DNA of 43,279 bases. Source: Sandaracinaceae bacterium. GTDB taxonomy: Bacteria; Myxococcota_A; Polyangia; Polyangiales; Sandaracinaceae. Shown here piece after piece: positions 2,642 through 15,271 of this stretch. A program made the position numbers and the translations under genes. The notes beneath the pieces are model-generated. The model ran no database searches and had not been told where the DNA came from. It worked only from the letters and a program-made list of their open reading frames with translations. The first letter of the stretch is position 1. The number at the start of each line of letters is the position of its first letter. The stretch lies in contig JAIBCE010000024.1 in the NCBI GenBank assembly GCA_019694315.1, forward strand, positions 1-43,279, written 5' to 3'.

Positions 2642-3555
2642 GCGACGCGAGCGAGCCGCGCGACGAGGCCGAGGCCTCGGACGCCAAGAGCACGTCCGAC
2701 AAGGACAAGTCGACGTCCGACAAGGACAAGTCGACGTCCGACAAGGACAAAGCCTCGTCCGACAAGGACAGAGCGTCGTCCGACAAGGACAAGTCGACGT
2801 CCGACAAGGACAAGTCGACGTCCGACAAGGACAAGTCGACGTCCGACAACAAGTCCGATCGCGCCAAGGTCGAGAAGTCGCCTCCGGTGAGCGAGCCCGA
2901 CTCGTTCCGCTCGAACGTCCGCACGATCGCGGGCGCGTTCCTCGTCGCGATCTTCATCCGCATCGTGGTCTTCGAGGCGTTCGAGATCGAGGGGCCCTCC
3001 ATGGAGCCCACCTTCGTCAACGGCGACCGCGTGATCGTGGCGAAGTACCCCTTCGGCCTCTTCCTCCCGTTCATGAACGAGGCGGTGGTGAGCTGGGGCA
3101 TGCCCAACGCGGGCGACGTGGTGATCGTGCGGAGCCCGGCCGACAACGTCGACATCGTCAAGCGCGTGATCGGCGTGCCCGGCGACCGCATCGAGATCCG
3201 CGACGACGTCGTCTATCGCAACGGCGAGGCGATCCGCACGCGCGAGCTCGGCCCGTGCCGCGAGGAAGAGAGCTCCGAGGATCCGGGCATCTGCGTCTGG
3301 TACGAGGAGCGCATCGACGGCCTCATCCACCGCACGAGCACGAGCGTGATCGAGCCCACCGAGTCGCTCAGCGAGCGCGAGGTGCCGCCCGGCCACGTGT
3401 TCGTCCTCGGCGATCACCGCGATCGCTCGAACGACTCCCGCAACCCCGCGGTGGGCATGATCCCCGTGGGCCGCATCAAGGGTCGCGCGCTCTCGATCTA
3501 CTGGTCGAGCGACGAGGAGATCCGCTGGGATCGCTTCTTCACCGCGGTGGAGTGA
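2638..3555 (+). CDS. lepB: signal peptidase I with repetitive charged N-terminal extension
   Basis: A 305-residue type I signal peptidase, the membrane serine protease that cleaves Sec and Tat signal peptides. The GTG at 2638 overlaps the miaE stop. Residues 1-85 are a hydrophilic, low-complexity cytoplasmic extension built on a seven-residue repeat (STSDKDK and variants). One transmembrane helix follows (IAGAFLVAIFIRIVVFEAF, about 97-115). The catalytic Ser is S121 in GPSMEPT and the general-base Lys is K175 in DIVKRVIGVPGD; the C-terminal box GDHRDRSNDSRNP is intact. Between them lies an insertion with two Cys (ELGPCREEESSEDPGICVWY), possibly a periplasmic disulfide. The enzyme appears complete; the extension is not needed for the fold and is the odd part. 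Confidence 0.93.
   Translation: MSDASEPRDEAEASDAKSTSDKDKSTSDKDKSTSDKDKASSDKDRASSDKDKSTSDKDKSTSDKDKSTSDNKSDRAKVEKSPPVSEPDSFRSNVRTIAGAFLVAIFIRIVVFEAFEIEGPSMEPTFVNGDRVIVAKYPFGLFLPFMNEAVVSWGMPNAGDVVIVRSPADNVDIVKRVIGVPGDRIEIRDDVVYRNGEAIRTRELGPCREEESSEDPGICVWYEERIDGLIHRTSTSVIEPTESLSEREVPPGHVFVLGDHRDRSNDSRNPAVGMIPVGRIKGRALSIYWSSDEEIRWDRFFTAVE
2689..2850 (+). repeat. in-frame 21-bp tandem repeat inside lepB
   Basis: Seven full 21-bp units (2689-2835) plus a decayed eighth encode STSDKDK three times, ASSDKDR, ASSDKDK, then STSDKDK twice and STSDN. Because the unit is a multiple of three, gain or loss of copies changes linker length without breaking the frame. Most units are identical at DNA level, which suggests recent expansion. 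Confidence 0.92.
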
Positions 3556-3585
3556 GCACCCCGCCGCTCGCCTCGCCGTGGCTCA

Positions 3586-3610
3586 CGCAGGCCTGGCTCA
3601 CGCGCCTGCG
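3586..3610. terminator. hairpin at lepB / PH-like convergent junction
   Basis: A 7-bp stem (3586-3592 with 3604-3610) encloses an 11-base loop containing the stop codon of the leftward gene (3598-3600). There is no T-tract. A terminator role is inferred from position. Confidence 0.3.
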
Positions 3611-4080
3611 GGCAGGCCCAGCGCGGCAGGCACGTCCTTCAAGAACGCACCCTGGCCGCGCACGCGCTCGGGAAACACCGCGAGGCGGAACGTGTCCTCT
3701 CCGTCGGTGAGCTGGAACGTGATCGAGCGGTTGTTCGCGAAGCCGCCGACCGCCACCCCGCGGATGTTCTGACGCGGGATCTCCTCGACCCAGAGCATGG
3801 TCCGCTTGCCGAGCTTGAGCTTGGTGGCCTGCAGGATGAGGCGCTGGTCGGTCAGCACGGCGAAGTAGTCGACCCAGCGGTCGCGGCCGCTGACCATCGA
3901 CGTCTTGTAGAACCAGTACGCGAGGACGAAGGGCAGCCCGATCACTGTCACCGCGAGCAGCGTCATCCCGATCAGTCCCAGGATTCCTGCCTGTCGGCTC
4001 ACCATCGCGCGAGCGAGAGGTCGCTCACCAGGTCTGAGCAGTGTGTGTAGTTGCTGGTCGAGCAGATCGTCGTTCGACAT
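3598..4080 (-). CDS. PH-like membrane protein
   Basis: A 160-residue protein starting at the ATG at 4080, with a good ribosome-binding site (GAGGAGGG on the coding strand, just upstream). Residues 1-25 are hydrophilic (MSNDDLLDQQLHTLLRPGER), residues about 30-60 form one long or two short membrane helices (ILGLIGMTLLAVTVIGLPFVLAYWF), and residues about 68-155 form a compact beta-rich domain (YFAVLTDQRLILQATKLKLG, IPRQNIRGVAVGGFANN) typical of bacterial PH-like domains (bPH/YdbT type). Such domains usually serve as membrane-associated binding modules. No partner or ligand can be read from the sequence. It lies convergent to lepB. Confidence 0.65.
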   Translation of the reverse strand: MSNDDLLDQQLHTLLRPGERPLARAMVSRQAGILGLIGMTLLAVTVIGLPFVLAYWFYKTSMVSGRDRWVDYFAVLTDQRLILQATKLKLGKRTMLWVEEIPRQNIRGVAVGGFANNRSITFQLTDGEDTFRLAVFPERVRGQGAFLKDVPAALGLPAGA

Positions 4081-4171
4081 GAGCCCTCCTCGGATGGGTC
4101 CCGGGTCCTCGCTCGCGGACCCTACGCTCGCGAGGGCGTCCAGCGCTGCGCTCGCGCACGGGCTCAGGGGC

Positions 4172-4672
4172 TCAGCGCAGATCGGGCTGCGCGACCTGAG
4201 CGCCGATGGCGAGCCCCGGACGCGCCTCTGCCGACGTCTCGCGTCGATCCACGCGCCAGAGCTCGCGCCCGCTCGCGTCGTGCGCGACGAGGTCGCCGTC
4301 GACGTGGACGCCCGCGAGACCACCGGCGCGCTCGTTCTCGGCCACCCAGCGCACGGTGCCTTGCTCGGTGAGGCACGCGGCACCACGGCGGCCCGCGAGG
4401 TAGAGGTGGCCCTCGTGGACCAGACCCGCCGAGGGACCGAACGGCAGCGGCACCGTGCCCAGGACCGCGCCGCTCGCGAGGCTCACGGCCGTGACCGAGC
4501 CCGGGTGATCGGGATCGCCCGAGGCCGACGCGACCGCCACGAACGCGACGTGGTCGGTCACGAAGAGCCGGGTCGGCAGGTCCTCGAGCGGCACCTGCCA
4601 GCGGAGCACACCCGTGAGGGGCTCGAGCGCGAGGAGGGTTCGACGGTTGAGGAGCACGAGCGGGGTCGTCAT
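4172..4672 (-). CDS. PQQ-type beta-propeller fragment-like protein
   Basis: A 166-residue protein from the ATG at 4672 (MTTPLVLLNRRTLLALEPLT); an upstream in-frame ATG at 4723 would add a basic, unlikely N-terminus. It contains recurring strand pairs of the PQQ/WD-like type: LLALEPLTGVLRWQVPL, VTAVSLASGAVLGTVPL, CLTEQGTVRWVAENE and VAHDASGRELWRVDR. Each follows the pattern hydrophobic strand - Asp/Ser - Gly - x - x - hydrophobic - W. Only about four blades are present where a full propeller has seven or eight, and there is no signal peptide, so it may be a half-propeller that oligomerises or a remnant. TATCGT (4686-4681 on the coding strand) may be a -10 element. Confidence 0.6.
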   Translation of the reverse strand: MTTPLVLLNRRTLLALEPLTGVLRWQVPLEDLPTRLFVTDHVAFVAVASASGDPDHPGSVTAVSLASGAVLGTVPLPFGPSAGLVHEGHLYLAGRRGAACLTEQGTVRWVAENERAGGLAGVHVDGDLVAHDASGRELWRVDRRETSAEARPGLAIGAQVAQPDLR

Positions 4673-7355: not shown

Positions 7356-8054
7356 GTGAGCCACTTCGAGGACGATCCCGCCGGCGAGACGCACATCGAT
7401 CGCGATCCGACGCCGCTCGATGCGATCGCGCCGAGCGCGTTCGGTGCCGCGCCCCACGCTCGCCAGCCTCCTCGACCTCCGCCACCGCCCGTGATGCCCA
7501 CCGGCGCGGCGCCACCGAGCAAGTTCGCGGCGCCGCCGCCCACGGAGCAAGGGCGCTTCGCGCAGCCCATCCACCAGGGTCGGCCGGTCGACGCCAAGCC
7601 CGTCGCGTACTTCGATCAGCCCGTCACCTCGCCGCCGCGCTCGATGGTCTACGCGCTCGGGGCGATGGTGATGCTCTCGCTCCTGCAGGCGATCACGAAC
7701 GCGCCGTCCATGCTGCTCCTGCCGGGCTGCGCGCCCGCCCAGATCGTGTTCGCGATGCTCGTGGCGGTGACCTGCTGGCGAGGTCGCACGTATGGTCGAC
7801 CGCTCGCGGTGCTCGGCTTCGTGGCCTGGGTCTTCGCGGCGGCGCTCGCGTTCCGCGGCCACGCCAACATGGTCTCGTTGCTCTCGTACGAGTCGGTGCA
7901 GCGTGGCGCGATGAGCAACGCGATCCGCACCGTGATCGTCGTCCGCGCCGCGCTCGAGGCCTTCCTCGTGTGGAGCCTCTTCCGCCCCGAGGCCAGCAAG
8001 TACTTCGCTCACCGCGCCGCGGTCGACAAGCTCGGCGGACGCAAGTGGGAGTGA
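7356..8054 (+). CDS. integral membrane protein of unknown function
   Basis: A 232-residue protein starting at GTG 7356 (MSHFEDDPAGETHIDRDPTP). Residues 1-90 are a Pro/Ala-rich, presumably disordered cytoplasmic region. The rest holds about four hydrophobic segments: MVYALGAMVMLSLLQAI, IVFAMLVAVTCWRG, PLAVLGFVAWVFAAALAF and TVIVVRAALEAFLVWSLF. It ends in a short basic tail (HRAAVDKLGGRKWE). The pattern recalls small myxobacterial membrane proteins with Pro-rich N-termini; no family is assigned. It is divergent from the hydrolase lipoprotein gene, with 141 bases between them in which I see no clear regulatory site. Confidence 0.65.
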   Translation: MSHFEDDPAGETHIDRDPTPLDAIAPSAFGAAPHARQPPRPPPPPVMPTGAAPPSKFAAPPPTEQGRFAQPIHQGRPVDAKPVAYFDQPVTSPPRSMVYALGAMVMLSLLQAITNAPSMLLLPGCAPAQIVFAMLVAVTCWRGRTYGRPLAVLGFVAWVFAAALAFRGHANMVSLLSYESVQRGAMSNAIRTVIVVRAALEAFLVWSLFRPEASKYFAHRAAVDKLGGRKWE

Positions 8055-8110: not shown

Positions 8111-8455
8111 ATGAACCCGCTCTCCACGATCGCTCGCACGGCCGCGCTCGGCGCGCTCGGTGCCATGCTCGTGGGGCTGCTCGGGGCGGGCAGCGCGGCG
8201 GCCCAGGAGCGGAGCAGCGCCACCGCGCGCTCCGAGATCATCGATCCGTTTCCTCGCGCCACGCGCGCGGCCGCCGCGATCACCGAGATCGTCGTGGAGC
8301 TCATCGATCCGTTCGAGGGAGCGCCTCCGCGGGCCACGGCTGCGCGCAGCGCGTCGGGTCGCGCGAGCGCGGCCGCCGCGCACACCGAGATCGTCGACCC
8401 GTTCCGCACCGGCGTGGCGGCGGCCTCCGAGATCCTCGATCCGTGGGCGCCCTGA
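8111..8455 (+). CDS. small secreted protein with four EI-x-DPF/W motifs
   Basis: A 114-residue protein from the ATG at 8111; an in-frame ATG at 8099 is possible but overlaps a TATGCT that may be the -10 element. The signal peptide MNPLSTIARTAALGALGAML-VGLLGAGSAAA probably ends near residue 31. The mature 80 residues are Ala/Arg/Ser-rich and carry four near-identical motifs: SEIIDPF (41-47), TEIVVELIDPF (58-68), TEIVDPF (92-98) and SEILDPW (106-112), the last just before the C-terminus. The rest looks disordered. No known family is recognised. The regular motif suggests repeated binding to one partner or to a surface. TATGCT at 8098-8103 is a possible -10 hexamer. Confidence 0.7.
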   Translation: MNPLSTIARTAALGALGAMLVGLLGAGSAAAQERSSATARSEIIDPFPRATRAAAAITEIVVELIDPFEGAPPRATAARSASGRASAAAAHTEIVDPFRTGVAAASEILDPWAP

Positions 8456-8472: not shown

Positions 8473-8533
8473 GCTCCGGTCGACACGCGTGAGGCTCCGG
8501 TCGACACGCGTGAGGCTCCGGTCGACACGCGAG
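8473..8533. repeat. three-copy 21-bp intergenic tandem repeat
   Basis: Units at 8473-8493, 8494-8514 and 8515-8533. The first two are identical; the third lacks two bases. Each contains the palindromes GTCGAC and (first two) ACGCGT separated by no bases or one base. It lies 18 bases after the stop of the small secreted protein and before two hairpins. Confidence 0.9.
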
Positions 8534-8600: not shown

Positions 8601-9074
8601 ATGAGCGGCGCGCCCGGCGACAAGGCCCAGAGCGCGGCACCGCGGACCTCCGGCTGGCTCCGCGCGCTCGGCATCGGCTGCGGCTTCGTCGCGTTCGGTG
8701 GGCTCTGTGTGGTGGGCCTCTCGACGCGGATGATCCTCGCGCAGACGAGCGACGCCGCCGACGCGTGCTCGGGCTTCCTCGGCGACGTGCGCGACGACGA
8801 TCACGCGTCCGCTCTGCAGCGTATGGACGCCGACTACCAGCACGACCTCGCCGCGGCGCACCTGCGCGACGAGATCGCGCGGATCAGCCCGCTCGAGAGC
8901 CACGTGCAGGCGATCATCACCTCGGTGGAGAGCCGCAACGAGGGCGACGCGAGCACCGTCGAGGGCTCGCTCTATGGCAGCTTCGGCGAGGTCCCCGTGG
9001 CCTGCGAGCTCTCGCAGCGCGACGGCTACTGGTACATCGATCTCGTCGTCGTCGACGGCACGCCGCTCGAGTGA
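8601..9074 (+). CDS. membrane-anchored hypothetical protein
   Basis: A 157-residue protein with a hydrophilic N-terminus, a single membrane helix (LGIGCGFVAFGGLCVVGLST, about 25-45) and an extracytoplasmic domain of about 105 residues. That domain begins with helices (SDAADACSGFLGDVRDDDHA, LAAAHLRDEIARI) and ends with strands (ASTVEGSLYGSFGEVPVACE, DGYWYIDLVVVDGTPLE). The layout resembles NTF2-like/DUF4878-type lumenal domains in which a helix pair packs on a curved sheet, but this is only an impression. It is followed eight bases later by the propeller gene and is probably cotranscribed with it. Confidence 0.6.
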   Translation: MSGAPGDKAQSAAPRTSGWLRALGIGCGFVAFGGLCVVGLSTRMILAQTSDAADACSGFLGDVRDDDHASALQRMDADYQHDLAAAHLRDEIARISPLESHVQAIITSVESRNEGDASTVEGSLYGSFGEVPVACELSQRDGYWYIDLVVVDGTPLE

Positions 9075-9081
9075 GGTGACC

Positions 9082-10557
9082 GTGTCTCCGACCCGGCATC
9101 GGCTCGCCCGCACGACCAACGTCTTCGCAGACGGCGCGAGGCGCGCGCTCGTCACCGGGACGTGTCTCGCGGGGGCCCTCGGATCCCTCTCGCCTCGGCC
9201 CGTGCTGGCCCATGGGCGCGAGCCCTCGGTGGGCCAGGTCGCCTTCGATCCGGCCGATCGCGATCACTTCGTCTTGCGTGGGACCTGGGCCCTCCTCACC
9301 ACGCGCGACGACGGCGCCTCGTTCACGTGGAGCTGCGCGGTGGGCGCGGGCTTCGATCGGCTCACCGAGGATCCGGTCGTCGCGATCAGCGAGTCGGGGC
9401 GCGTGCACCTCGGCACCTTCGACGGCCTCCGTCGCTCGAGCGTGACGGCGTGCGACTACGAGGACGGCGCGCCACCCACGTGGGGGAGCTTCGCGATCGA
9501 CGTGGAGCGCGATCCGCACGACGGCCGCACGCTCTGGGTGGCGATGTCGCCGGGTGACGCCGCGAACACGCTGCTCCGCAGCATCGACGAGGGTGACTCG
9601 TACGAGGTCGTGCACACCTTCGACGTGGGGCTGCTCCTCGAGCGCGTCCGCCTCGCGCCGAGCGATCCGATGCGCCTCTACGTGAGCGGTGCGGTGCCGC
9701 GCATGGACACCGAGCCGCGCCATGTCCACGTGCTCCACTCCGAGGACGGCGGCGACACGTTCACGCAGGTGGAGATCCCGCTCCTCGACGGAGAGCGCAA
9801 CGCGCACGTCCTCGCGGTCGATCCGCTCGATGCCGATCGCGCGCTCGTGCGCGTCACGCGCGCGACCACCGACGAGATGCCCGAGCGCCTCCTCCTCACC
9901 GAGGATGGCGGCGCGACGTTCACCACCGTGCTCGAGATCCGCGAGATCATCGGCCTCGCCTATGCACACGACGGCGGCCGCGTGTGGGCCGGCAGCTGGT
10001 ACGGCGGGCTCCATCGCTCCGACGACGGTGGCGTCACGTGGACGCCGATCGATCCCGATCTGCGCGTGCGCTGCCTCGCGGAGCGCGCGGGCGCGTCGGG
10101 AGGCAGCGAGCTCTTCGTGTGCGTCGACGAGCTCTCGAACGACTACGCGGTGGGCCGCTCCACCGATGGCGGCGACACGATCGCGCCGCTCTGGGGCTTC
10201 GCCGACGTGGTGAACGACACGGGCTGCTCGGTGTGCTCCGTCGTCGGTAGCGTGTGCCCTTCGTACTGGCCCGACGTCCTCTACGACATCGCCACGCTGG
10301 GTGGTCTCGACGGTGGCCCGGCGCCCGGGCCGACCGATGCGGGCCCTTCGTTCTGCGGAGAGGGAGGCGTTCCGTTCGACGCCGCGCTGCCCCAGCCGGA
10401 CGCAGGATCCGGCGGCGGCGGAGGCACGTGCGCGTGTCGCGTGGGCCGCCCCGTCGCCTCGAGTGAGGGCAGCGCCTCGAGCGAAGGCAGCACCGCGATC
10501 GTCCTGGGCCTGGGGGCCCTGGCCTCGCTCGCGGTCCGTCGACGCAGGCGCCCATGA
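9082..10557 (+). CDS. secreted Asp-box beta-propeller with MYXO-CTERM-like tail
   Basis: A 491-residue protein. I prefer the GTG at 9082, with GAGG upstream, over the GTG at 9076. A signal peptide covers about residues 20-45 (LVTGTCLAGALGSLSPRP). The body has at least five Asp-box motifs of the S/T-x-D-x-G-x-(T/S)-(F/W) type: TTRDDGASFTW, RSIDEGDSY, HSEDGGDTF, TEDGGATF, RSDDGGVTW and RSTDGGDT, as in sialidase/BNR-type propellers. The C-terminus has a Gly/Ser linker, a Cys pair (TCACRVG), a hydrophobic helix (AIVLGLGALASLAV) and an Arg cluster. This is the MYXO-CTERM layout, thought to direct proteins to the cell surface. Enzymatic activity is not supported; it may bind sugars or act as a scaffold. 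Confidence 0.75.
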   Translation: MSPTRHRLARTTNVFADGARRALVTGTCLAGALGSLSPRPVLAHGREPSVGQVAFDPADRDHFVLRGTWALLTTRDDGASFTWSCAVGAGFDRLTEDPVVAISESGRVHLGTFDGLRRSSVTACDYEDGAPPTWGSFAIDVERDPHDGRTLWVAMSPGDAANTLLRSIDEGDSYEVVHTFDVGLLLERVRLAPSDPMRLYVSGAVPRMDTEPRHVHVLHSEDGGDTFTQVEIPLLDGERNAHVLAVDPLDADRALVRVTRATTDEMPERLLLTEDGGATFTTVLEIREIIGLAYAHDGGRVWAGSWYGGLHRSDDGGVTWTPIDPDLRVRCLAERAGASGGSELFVCVDELSNDYAVGRSTDGGDTIAPLWGFADVVNDTGCSVCSVVGSVCPSYWPDVLYDIATLGGLDGGPAPGPTDAGPSFCGEGGVPFDAALPQPDAGSGGGGGTCACRVGRPVASSEGSASSEGSTAIVLGLGALASLAVRRRRRP

Positions 10558-13768: not shown

Positions 13769-13939
13769 GCCGCCGCGCCGTCGGGACGGTCTCCAGCGGG
13801 CGCGGCCGCCCCCGCCCACCGTGTGCGTTTGCACGCCCCGCGGCAGAATTCAGGCCGGTTTCTCGGGGGATTCGTTGACACACCTCGCCCGCGCTGCGAG
13901 GCTTTCGGCCCCGTTCCCCCGTCTCCTCGCACCGGACGT

Positions 13940-15271
13940 ATGGTCGATCAGATAGGCAACTGCCGCATCCTCCAGGAGATCGGCTCCGGTGGCATGGCCG
14001 TGGTCTACAAGGCGGTGCAGGAGCCGCTCGGCAGGACCGTCGCCATCAAGGCCCTCAAGCCGTCGATCGCGATGGACTCGGGCTTCGCGAAGCGCTTCGA
14101 GCGCGAGGCGCACTTCATGGCCTCGCTCCAGCACGAGAACATCCTGCACGTCCACGACTTCGTGAAGGACCGCGGGACGATGTTCATCGTCATGGAGTAC
14201 GTGCAGGGGATCGACCTCTACGATCTCCTCGACATCACGCCGCGCCTGCCCGTCGACATCGCCGCGATCATCGCGCTCCAGGTCTCTCGCGCGCTCGACT
14301 ACGCGCACTTCCGCGGGATCATCCACCGCGACATCAAGCCCGCGAACATCATGCTGTCGCACCAGGGCGAGGTGAAGCTGATGGACTTCGGCATCGCCCG
14401 CGACGACCGCCTCACCGATCTCACCGAGACGGGCACGGGCCTCGGCACGCCGAGCTACATGAGCCCCGAGCAGATCCTCGGCGACAAGCTCGACTTCCGC
14501 TCGGACATCTTCTCGGTCGGCATCGTGCTCTACCAGATGGTCACGGGCCGCAAGCCGTTCGTCGAGGACGACGCGCGCACCGTCATGCAGAAGATCCGGC
14601 TCGATCGCTACACGAGCCCCCGCAAGATCAACCCCGCGGTGCCTCGCACGCTCGAGCACATCATGGGGCGCTGCATGGAGAAGCTCCCTGCGAACCGCTA
14701 CCCCACGACGCAGGCGCTCATCGACGACCTCCAGGACTTCCTCGCGTCGCGCGTGCCCATCAACCACAACGCGCGCCTCGTGATGTACCTCCGCGAGGTC
14801 GGCGTCATCACCGACGCCAAGGCCGAGGAGATCCTCAGCGCCAGCGCGCCCAACCGCCTGCGCCGCGGCAACGGCGATCGGCGCATGGTCACGCAGATGT
14901 GGGCCGTGCAGGGCGGCCTCGGCGCGTTCGCCGTGGTCGCGGGCCTCGTGCTCCAGGGCGTCTCGGGCCGCCTCGGCGGCGACCCGGATCAGTTCGTCGC
15001 CGAGACGGGCGCGCCCGTGGTGCCGCAGCGCGCGGGCCACCTCCGCTTCGTCGTCGATCCGTGGGCGCACGTCGAGATCGACGGACAGCCCGTGCTCACC
15101 ACGCCCTCGGCGCGCGAGATCGCGCTGCCGCCGGGCGATCACTACGTGCGCCTCGAGAACCCGTACTACGAGACGATCGATCGGCGCGTGACGGTGCGCG
15201 AGGGAGAGACGCAGCTCATCGAGGAGACGATGGTCGAGCGCACGACGGCCGCCGAGGGAGAGGCGCCTTGA
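13940..15271 (+). CDS. membrane Ser/Thr protein kinase with PEGA domain
   Basis: A 443-residue Hanks-type kinase from the ATG at 13940. Residues 7-270 form a complete kinase: Gly loop GSGGMAVVYK (15-24), ATP lysine K37 in AIKAL, catalytic HRDIKPAN (129-136, D131), DFG (149-151), and an APE-equivalent SPE after GTPSYM. A short hydrophilic stretch, one membrane helix (WAVQGGLGAFAVVAGLVLQGV, 321-341) and an external PEGA-type domain (about 366-430, with EIALPPGDHYVRLENPYYE) follow, so the kinase is cytoplasmic and may sense something outside. A perfect -35-like TTGACA lies at 13875-13880 in the 171-base upstream gap, without a convincing -10. The stop overlaps the TTG of the LysM gene, so the two are probably coupled. 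Confidence 0.92.
   Translation: MVDQIGNCRILQEIGSGGMAVVYKAVQEPLGRTVAIKALKPSIAMDSGFAKRFEREAHFMASLQHENILHVHDFVKDRGTMFIVMEYVQGIDLYDLLDITPRLPVDIAAIIALQVSRALDYAHFRGIIHRDIKPANIMLSHQGEVKLMDFGIARDDRLTDLTETGTGLGTPSYMSPEQILGDKLDFRSDIFSVGIVLYQMVTGRKPFVEDDARTVMQKIRLDRYTSPRKINPAVPRTLEHIMGRCMEKLPANRYPTTQALIDDLQDFLASRVPINHNARLVMYLREVGVITDAKAEEILSASAPNRLRRGNGDRRMVTQMWAVQGGLGAFAVVAGLVLQGVSGRLGGDPDQFVAETGAPVVPQRAGHLRFVVDPWAHVEIDGQPVLTTPSAREIALPPGDHYVRLENPYYETIDRRVTVREGETQLIEETMVERTTAAEGEAP

Follow-up and report, generated by a model that had tools for sequence, protein, structure and literature searches.

A short motif repeated in a small exported protein of Polyangiales recurs at the C-termini of transmembrane Ser/Thr kinases

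To our knowledge, little has been settled about what holds or gates the Ser/Thr kinases of myxobacteria and related bacteria at the envelope, and we know of no bacterial envelope system of multivalent short-motif docking of the kind considered here. MYXO-CTERM and PEP-CTERM sorting tags consist of a C-terminal transmembrane helix and then an Arg-rich end. In eukaryotes, the repeated DPF/DPW motifs that Eps15 and epsin carry in an unstructured region are ligands of the AP-2 alpha appendage and of mu-homology domains (PMC6912373, PMC4731787). In Eps15 a pair of consecutive DPF motifs is the minimal unit for one domain, and six of them constitute the high-affinity site (PMC4731787). The TolB box of colicin E9 docks in the periplasm as a disordered peptide, and a Trp near its NPW end is essential (PMC2821528). 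Here we describe a small exported protein that repeats a short motif and transmembrane Ser/Thr kinases that end in the same peptide. Searches of one open-access library for the motif, for PEGA kinases and for Sandaracinus kinases found nothing on the tail or the repeat protein.

The four-motif protein

The window, that is, the whole stretch of 43,279 nucleotides that was analysed, carries at 8111..8455 on the forward strand a gene for an exported protein of 114 aa (P0001). A small secreted protein had been claimed at these coordinates, and its ORF lies exactly there: the frame is open and its GC of 0.72/0.65/0.90 at codon positions 1/2/3 is a gene-like pattern, and the translation and conserved relatives likewise speak for a gene. 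The first 32 aa (8111..8206, +) resemble a signal peptide, with one Arg, a hydrophobic stretch and small residues before Gln-Glu. They end ...GAGSAAAQ, the cleavage site being judged by eye, and leave a mature part of 82 residues in which Ala, Arg and Pro are abundant and which carries SEIIDPF, TEIVVELIDPF, TEIVDPF and SEILDPW. With the repeat motif defined as E-[IL]-[IVL]-D-P-[FW], the four cores, all on the forward strand, lie at 8234..8251 (EIIDPF), 8297-8314 (ELIDPF, within the longer TEIVVELIDPF at 8282..8314), 8387..8404 (EIVDPF) and 8429..8446 (EILDPW). Three of them are DPF and the last is DPW, its W standing two residues before the stop in the final SEILDPWAP; the preliminary description had counted four motifs, the last near the C-terminus, and this count is borne out. 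When the mature protein was shuffled 200,000 times, one motif arose in 11 shuffles and more than one in none, and a six-frame scan of the window returned these four motifs as the sole instances. Their placing had been called regular, which holds roughly but is too strong a word for cores that start 21, 30 and 14 residues apart.

No match of P0001 to Pfam was found up to E 10 and no family was matched in Pfam, NCBIfam or PHROGs. The mature protein had also been called apparently disordered. A single-sequence structure model of P0001 (pLDDT 65, pTM 0.25) was too poor to judge this and was discarded as uninformative; a longer relative, whose motif tail in a six-sequence model is mostly below pLDDT 50, supports the description indirectly.

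Relatives and gene neighbourhood

A genome of the same genus (G001) encodes a 101-aa relative (L002:738-1040) with all four motifs, the first kept as ELLDPF. Between the mature parts of the two proteins, identity covers 23 of 27 motif residues, with no gap among them; elsewhere 20 of 57 columns are identical and 13 are gapped. The core of motif 2 is kept in all eight sequences of alignment A1, and in alignment A3 the D-P-F of motif 3 and the E-x-L-D-P-W of motif 4 are invariant. Loss of the motif among homologues had been named as the finding that would speak against the first description; to judge from these alignments, the motif is retained and is the best-conserved part of the family.

Searching nine genomes of the same family with the DNA pattern of the motif led to six (L051-L056) that encode longer proteins, of 194-216 aa. 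These proteins have a signal-peptide-like start, a folded domain and three motifs, always with D-P-W plus 2-9 residues at the end. The window gene looks like an orthologue of the long proteins that lost, or never had, the folded domain, because its downstream genes match those beside the long proteins. The nearest of these (8601..9074, +), membrane-anchored and with DUF4864-like relatives, shares 43% identity with the gene that follows the long protein of L054 (Pfam DUF4864 on that L054 gene, E 1.7e-4, under the cut-off). The second (9088..10557, +; start uncertain) encodes a BNR/sortilin-like exported protein, for which the Pfam BNR and Sortilin-Vps10 matches are below the cut-off; it is 46% identical over 395 columns to a gene in L056, in the same order. 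Upstream, a membrane protein gene (7356..8054, +) shares 80% identity, across 178 residues, with the one that precedes the L002 copy. Between the P0001 gene and the next lies a perfect 21-base tandem repeat of 2.8 copies (8473-8531), and no terminator-like site was found in that region.

Downstream of the repeat genes of family f1 lie a gene for a DUF4864-like or bPH-domain membrane protein and a BNR-like gene, whereas in f4 and f8 a chlorite-dismutase-family gene comes next (3457-4272, +, by Pfam, in L078; 2479-3342, -, by eye, in L079). The neighbours were rejected as partners: they differ between families and none is conserved over the whole range of the repeat protein.

A profile found matches in 31 of the 183 genomes of the order that were searched. 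Fifteen of the 31, in three families (f1, f4, f8), encode a protein with 2-4 motifs, and in one (G396) the gene is interrupted by a contig end. The loci of the other 15 (G037, G398, G017 and 12 of f12) contain no two-motif ORF, so these genomes share at most the N-terminal domain. Pattern matches add G371, with three motifs, and G399, with four; with less certainty, a 133-aa exported protein with five DPW in G269 (f12) may belong to the set. The motif copies of the relatives sit in a low-confidence, probably disordered tail, usually after a folded domain that P0001 is without, and in f4 most of them read E-V-L-D-P-W.

Other searches were less selective. With full-length P0001 as query, 36 of 38 genomes matched at E up to 10, and G000 itself and G001 were convincing; the remaining matches (best 6.4e-5) were not, because the query is Ala/Arg-rich. 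A scan of the retrieved loci and the window for at least two motifs gave nine distinct ORFs, eight of them in the repeat-protein family; the ninth, a TPR-like ORF (L029), was judged unrelated. A search for tandem DPW, which left out the pattern variant starting GAT, returned many DNA-level repeats or DPW inside conserved unrelated proteins (L223-L229); among the 30 loci read, the relevant ones are L218, L221, L222, L230, L231 and perhaps L241. At L241 (1411-1809, +), in f12, the 133-aa exported protein with five DPW has them at intervals of 12-17 residues; it may be a short version of this design that arose independently. One relative weakly matched a beta-lactamase exception model (E 0.008, well short of the cut-off), and this match was ignored.

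The folded domain of the long relatives was modelled with confidence over residues about 21-120 (block pLDDT 82-93). Its closest fold is PqiC (Z 9.2, 2.3 A, 91 residues); all remaining matches have Z below 8 and include the TolB N-terminal domain, CsgG, LptE, PelC and also ribosome hibernation factors. Foldseek with the domain model gave nothing at E 0.001 or better (best E 4.6e-3), and Pfam gave no match on the relatives in L052 and L054. The predicted domain thus resembles PqiC, TolB-N and CsgG at middling Z, a level that is often reached and implies no function.

The same peptide at the ends of kinases

The peptide [STG]-E-V-[VLI]-[DN]-P-W, usually with 1-3 further residues, forms the very C-terminus of a set of transmembrane Ser/Thr kinases, and motif 4 of P0001 is the same peptide. 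These kinases came to light through single hits of the first motif pattern. Most of the tailed kinases carry an extracytoplasmic PEGA domain, and a low-complexity linker precedes the tail; one such kinase (L066) matches Pfam Pkinase at E 9.7e-49 and PEGA at E 1e-9. In an alignment of ten kinase ends, E, V, D, P and W are invariant while the linker dissolves. The window's own genome holds one canonical end (L058, SEVVDPWDM), whose kinase part falls outside the contig, together with a degenerate kinase (L112, DGLVDPWQ). Tailed kinases were read in families f1, f2, f3, f4, f6, f8, f9 and f12 of the order. The motif cannot depend on a free carboxylate directly behind it, because the repeats are internal and some tails continue, as in L071, where nine residues follow the motif.

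We counted the C-terminal pattern EV..[DN]PW over 377 genomes of the phylum, 22 of which it hits. Within the order (71 genomes) 21 of 21 pattern hits are in frame with their stop, and outside it (306 genomes) one of eight is. Four of the ten allowed gap lengths fit the frame, and the chance of 21 out of 21 is therefore 0.4 to the 21st power, or 4e-9. Over 183 genomes of the order, 34 hits in 28 genomes were obtained, and 28 of the 34 are kinases. The rest comprise a PEGA end lying at the edge of a contig, two repeat-family members (in one of which, G399, the pattern's stop is out of frame), a non-kinase protein (L136), a protein that by eye is PIN-domain-like and a P-domain protein (L140). A looser pattern gave 17 hits in 14 genomes, comprising 11 kinases, five repeat-family members including the window gene, and one short ORF that is probably spurious; since these genomes were mostly chosen for holding the system, the count tests specificity, not prevalence. 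The reversed pattern gave no matches in the same 14 genomes. Internal motif matches were dropped as not C-terminal, among them tRNA-nucleotidyltransferase-like ORFs (L037, L063, L064), an SH3-like ORF (L061) and others, all named by eye.

These data bear on whether the motif is a binding site at all. It might instead be a remnant of composition or a folding or processing feature, with the repeats arising by chance or drift; no partner was found, and some kinases keep merely a DPW or HPW end, as such an origin would have it. Against this stand the selective conservation of the motif within diverged linkers, its occurrence in non-homologous proteins, the tails in eight families of the order and the near-zero reversed-pattern controls, and we hold such an origin to be distinctly improbable.

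They also bear on what the tails are for. The repeat protein might be a structural adaptor that bridges envelope proteins, with the kinases using the same anchor and the shared receptor having no signalling role. The receptor would then need only to be an abundant envelope protein, and the folded domain of the long relatives, modelled as PqiC/TolB-N/CsgG-like, could form the second half of the bridge. However, the window protein and its same-genus relative are without a second domain for bridging, and the predominance of kinases among C-terminal matches outside the repeat family points to signalling. We therefore regard the adaptor as rather unlikely, if well worth keeping in mind.

Tail and PEGA domain do not coincide throughout. 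Among 20 motif-flagged kinases in 30 loci, six carry a canonical tail, six a degenerate one (DPW or HPW alone) and eight none; conversely, there are tailed kinases with no PEGA match in Pfam (L138) or no PEGA visible by eye (L092 and L139). The window has a transmembrane Ser/Thr kinase of its own (13823-15271, +) without the tail motif. Its PEGA-like C-terminal part, recognised by eye, opens VVDPWAHVEIDG, with VVDPWA at the start. The non-kinase protein L136 (500-2020, -), from an f12 genome, ends EVMDPWR and has a second such stretch, LVDPWA, before its PEGA-like part; by eye it is possibly an anti-sigma factor (NCBIfam E 0.077, far under the cut-off). Some PEGA domains start VVDPWA, and it is conceivable that the motif docks on PEGA domains, the tail replacing or pairing with that strand. 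The opening of the window kinase's PEGA-like part and a TPR-PEGA protein encoded downstream of the long relative in L054 would agree with this, but tailed kinases without PEGA and PEGA kinases without the tail make docking of this kind hard to credit.

Genomes with the repeat protein tend to have the tailed kinase as well. It is present in 17 of 19 such genomes, counting one with a contig-end break and one with the looser DPW form; the two in which a repeat protein is present and no tailed kinase was found are G399 and G269. Elsewhere it was found in 16 of 164 genomes, by uneven searching. The co-occurrence (Fisher p 4e-13) ignores common descent and is no proof of linkage. In none of the loci read does a tailed kinase stand beside a repeat gene.

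A putative shared receptor and described counterparts

Kinases and exported protein share the peptide, and it is conserved in both. By topology it faces the periplasm in both, in the repeat protein through export and in the kinases because a transmembrane segment separates the tail from the catalytic domain. The preliminary description had proposed multivalent docking of the exported protein to an outer-membrane or surface partner. Docking of this kind is still the best reading; the partner would be a periplasmic receptor shared with the kinase tails, not just one at the outer membrane or surface, because the same peptide ends the transmembrane Ser/Thr kinases of the order. We infer that the peptide has a binding partner, that a single receptor reads it in both proteins and that signalling is affected.

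The scheme that we propose, to which we give about an even chance, is that the secreted repeat protein is a multivalent mimic of the kinase C-terminal tail and competes for, or clusters, a shared periplasmic receptor. Certain transmembrane kinases of the order have a C-terminal end, on the non-cytoplasmic side, that consists of a low-complexity linker and then the conserved peptide with its usual few residues; a putative envelope receptor would read this peptide and thereby anchor, cluster or gate the kinases. The exported protein would be a flexible chain bearing the peptide three or four times, and would vie with the kinase tails for the receptor or link several receptors to one another. By analogy with Eps15, multivalency is the obvious reason for the repeats. 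Sequence comparison lends support in that the motifs are better conserved than the rest of the protein and that relatives with 2-4 copies recur in 15 genomes of three families and in G371 and G399. The invariant residues of the ten kinase ends, the pattern counts with their frame and reversed-pattern controls and the joint presence of the two proteins in 17 of 19 genomes point the same way; the modelled domain of the long relatives, with its resemblance to envelope proteins, would add to this. Counting against the mimic, many PEGA kinases lack the tail, tailed kinases and repeat proteins each also occur without the other being found, the repeat gene adjoins no tailed kinase in the loci read and changes its neighbours between families, and the window protein has mostly DPF where the kinases have DPW. 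We think that the kinase tail is older and that the repeat protein was added later, since tailed kinases were found in families where the repeat protein was not.

Conserved genes follow the tailed kinases. In one lineage of tailed kinases, over f1, f4 and f9 (L244-L248, L250, L252, L253, L262), the locus reads glyQ/glyS-like, kinase, large lipoproteins, mutS-like, all named by eye. In another, with a zinc-ribbon N-terminus (L254, L256, L259, L260), a CAP-domain lipoprotein comes next in f1 and f4, with Pfam PF00188 matched in both proteins tested. These conserved lipoproteins, the large ones and those with CAP, are candidate partners and unproven.

The receptor could also be TolB or a TolB-like beta-propeller; the motif would then resemble the TolB box as a ligand, in competition with Pal or some other partner. 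The disordered TolB box of colicin E9 ends SENNPW with an essential last Trp, loosely like S-E-x-x-D-P-W (PMC2821528), and by eye the large lipoproteins after the first kinase lineage (f1, f4, f9) look like beta-propellers. However, Pfam and PDB sequence searches of these lipoproteins did not confirm a propeller, and the motif lacks the DG(S/T)GW core that the TolB box has. Moreover, TolB is general among Gram-negative bacteria, whereas the tail is nearly confined to one order. We consider such a receptor very unlikely.

More broadly, and more tentatively than for the mimic itself, we suggest that Polyangiales may possess a periplasmic peptide-recognition network, in which a receptor would read the S-E-phi-phi-D-P-W tails of transmembrane Ser/Thr kinases and of a few other membrane or exported proteins, and secreted repeats would tune signalling by competing or cross-linking. 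The principle is a variant of multivalent short-motif docking. If the proposal is true, such docking, well known in eukaryotes, also operates in the bacterial periplasm, and the system would be a bacterial envelope counterpart of eukaryotic DPF/DPW docking, with the repeat family as soluble regulator. A conserved kinase tail of about nine residues that recurs as repeats in a secreted protein gives a concrete handle on how kinases relate to the envelope.

Compared with described systems, P0001 differs from MYXO-CTERM and PEP-CTERM proteins in having no hydrophobic stretch before its end and no NCBIfam match. The PqiC/TolB-N/CsgG-like fold is resembled by the domain model of the long relatives, and the domain is absent from P0001 and its same-genus relative. 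Unlike the colicin peptide, P0001 is without the DG(S/T)GW core, and the TolB box is not repeated and belongs to other organisms and another role. Like Eps15 and epsin, P0001 repeats D-P-F/D-P-W in a putatively unstructured region; unlike them it has no EH, ENTH or UIM, has a conserved E-phi-phi before the DP and would act in the bacterial periplasm, and we take the likeness as a working analogy, not kinship. With the PEGA Ser/Thr kinases (Pfam Pkinase + PEGA), P0001 shares a peptide near or at the C-terminus, which in the kinases follows a low-complexity linker on the periplasmic side. Unlike these kinases, P0001 has no kinase, transmembrane or PEGA domain, is exported whole and carries four copies of the peptide, three of them DPF. 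The kinase-type E-phi-phi-D-P-W C-terminus itself is present in P0001, whose SEILDPWAP compares with the SEVVDPWDM of a kinase end encoded in the same genome.
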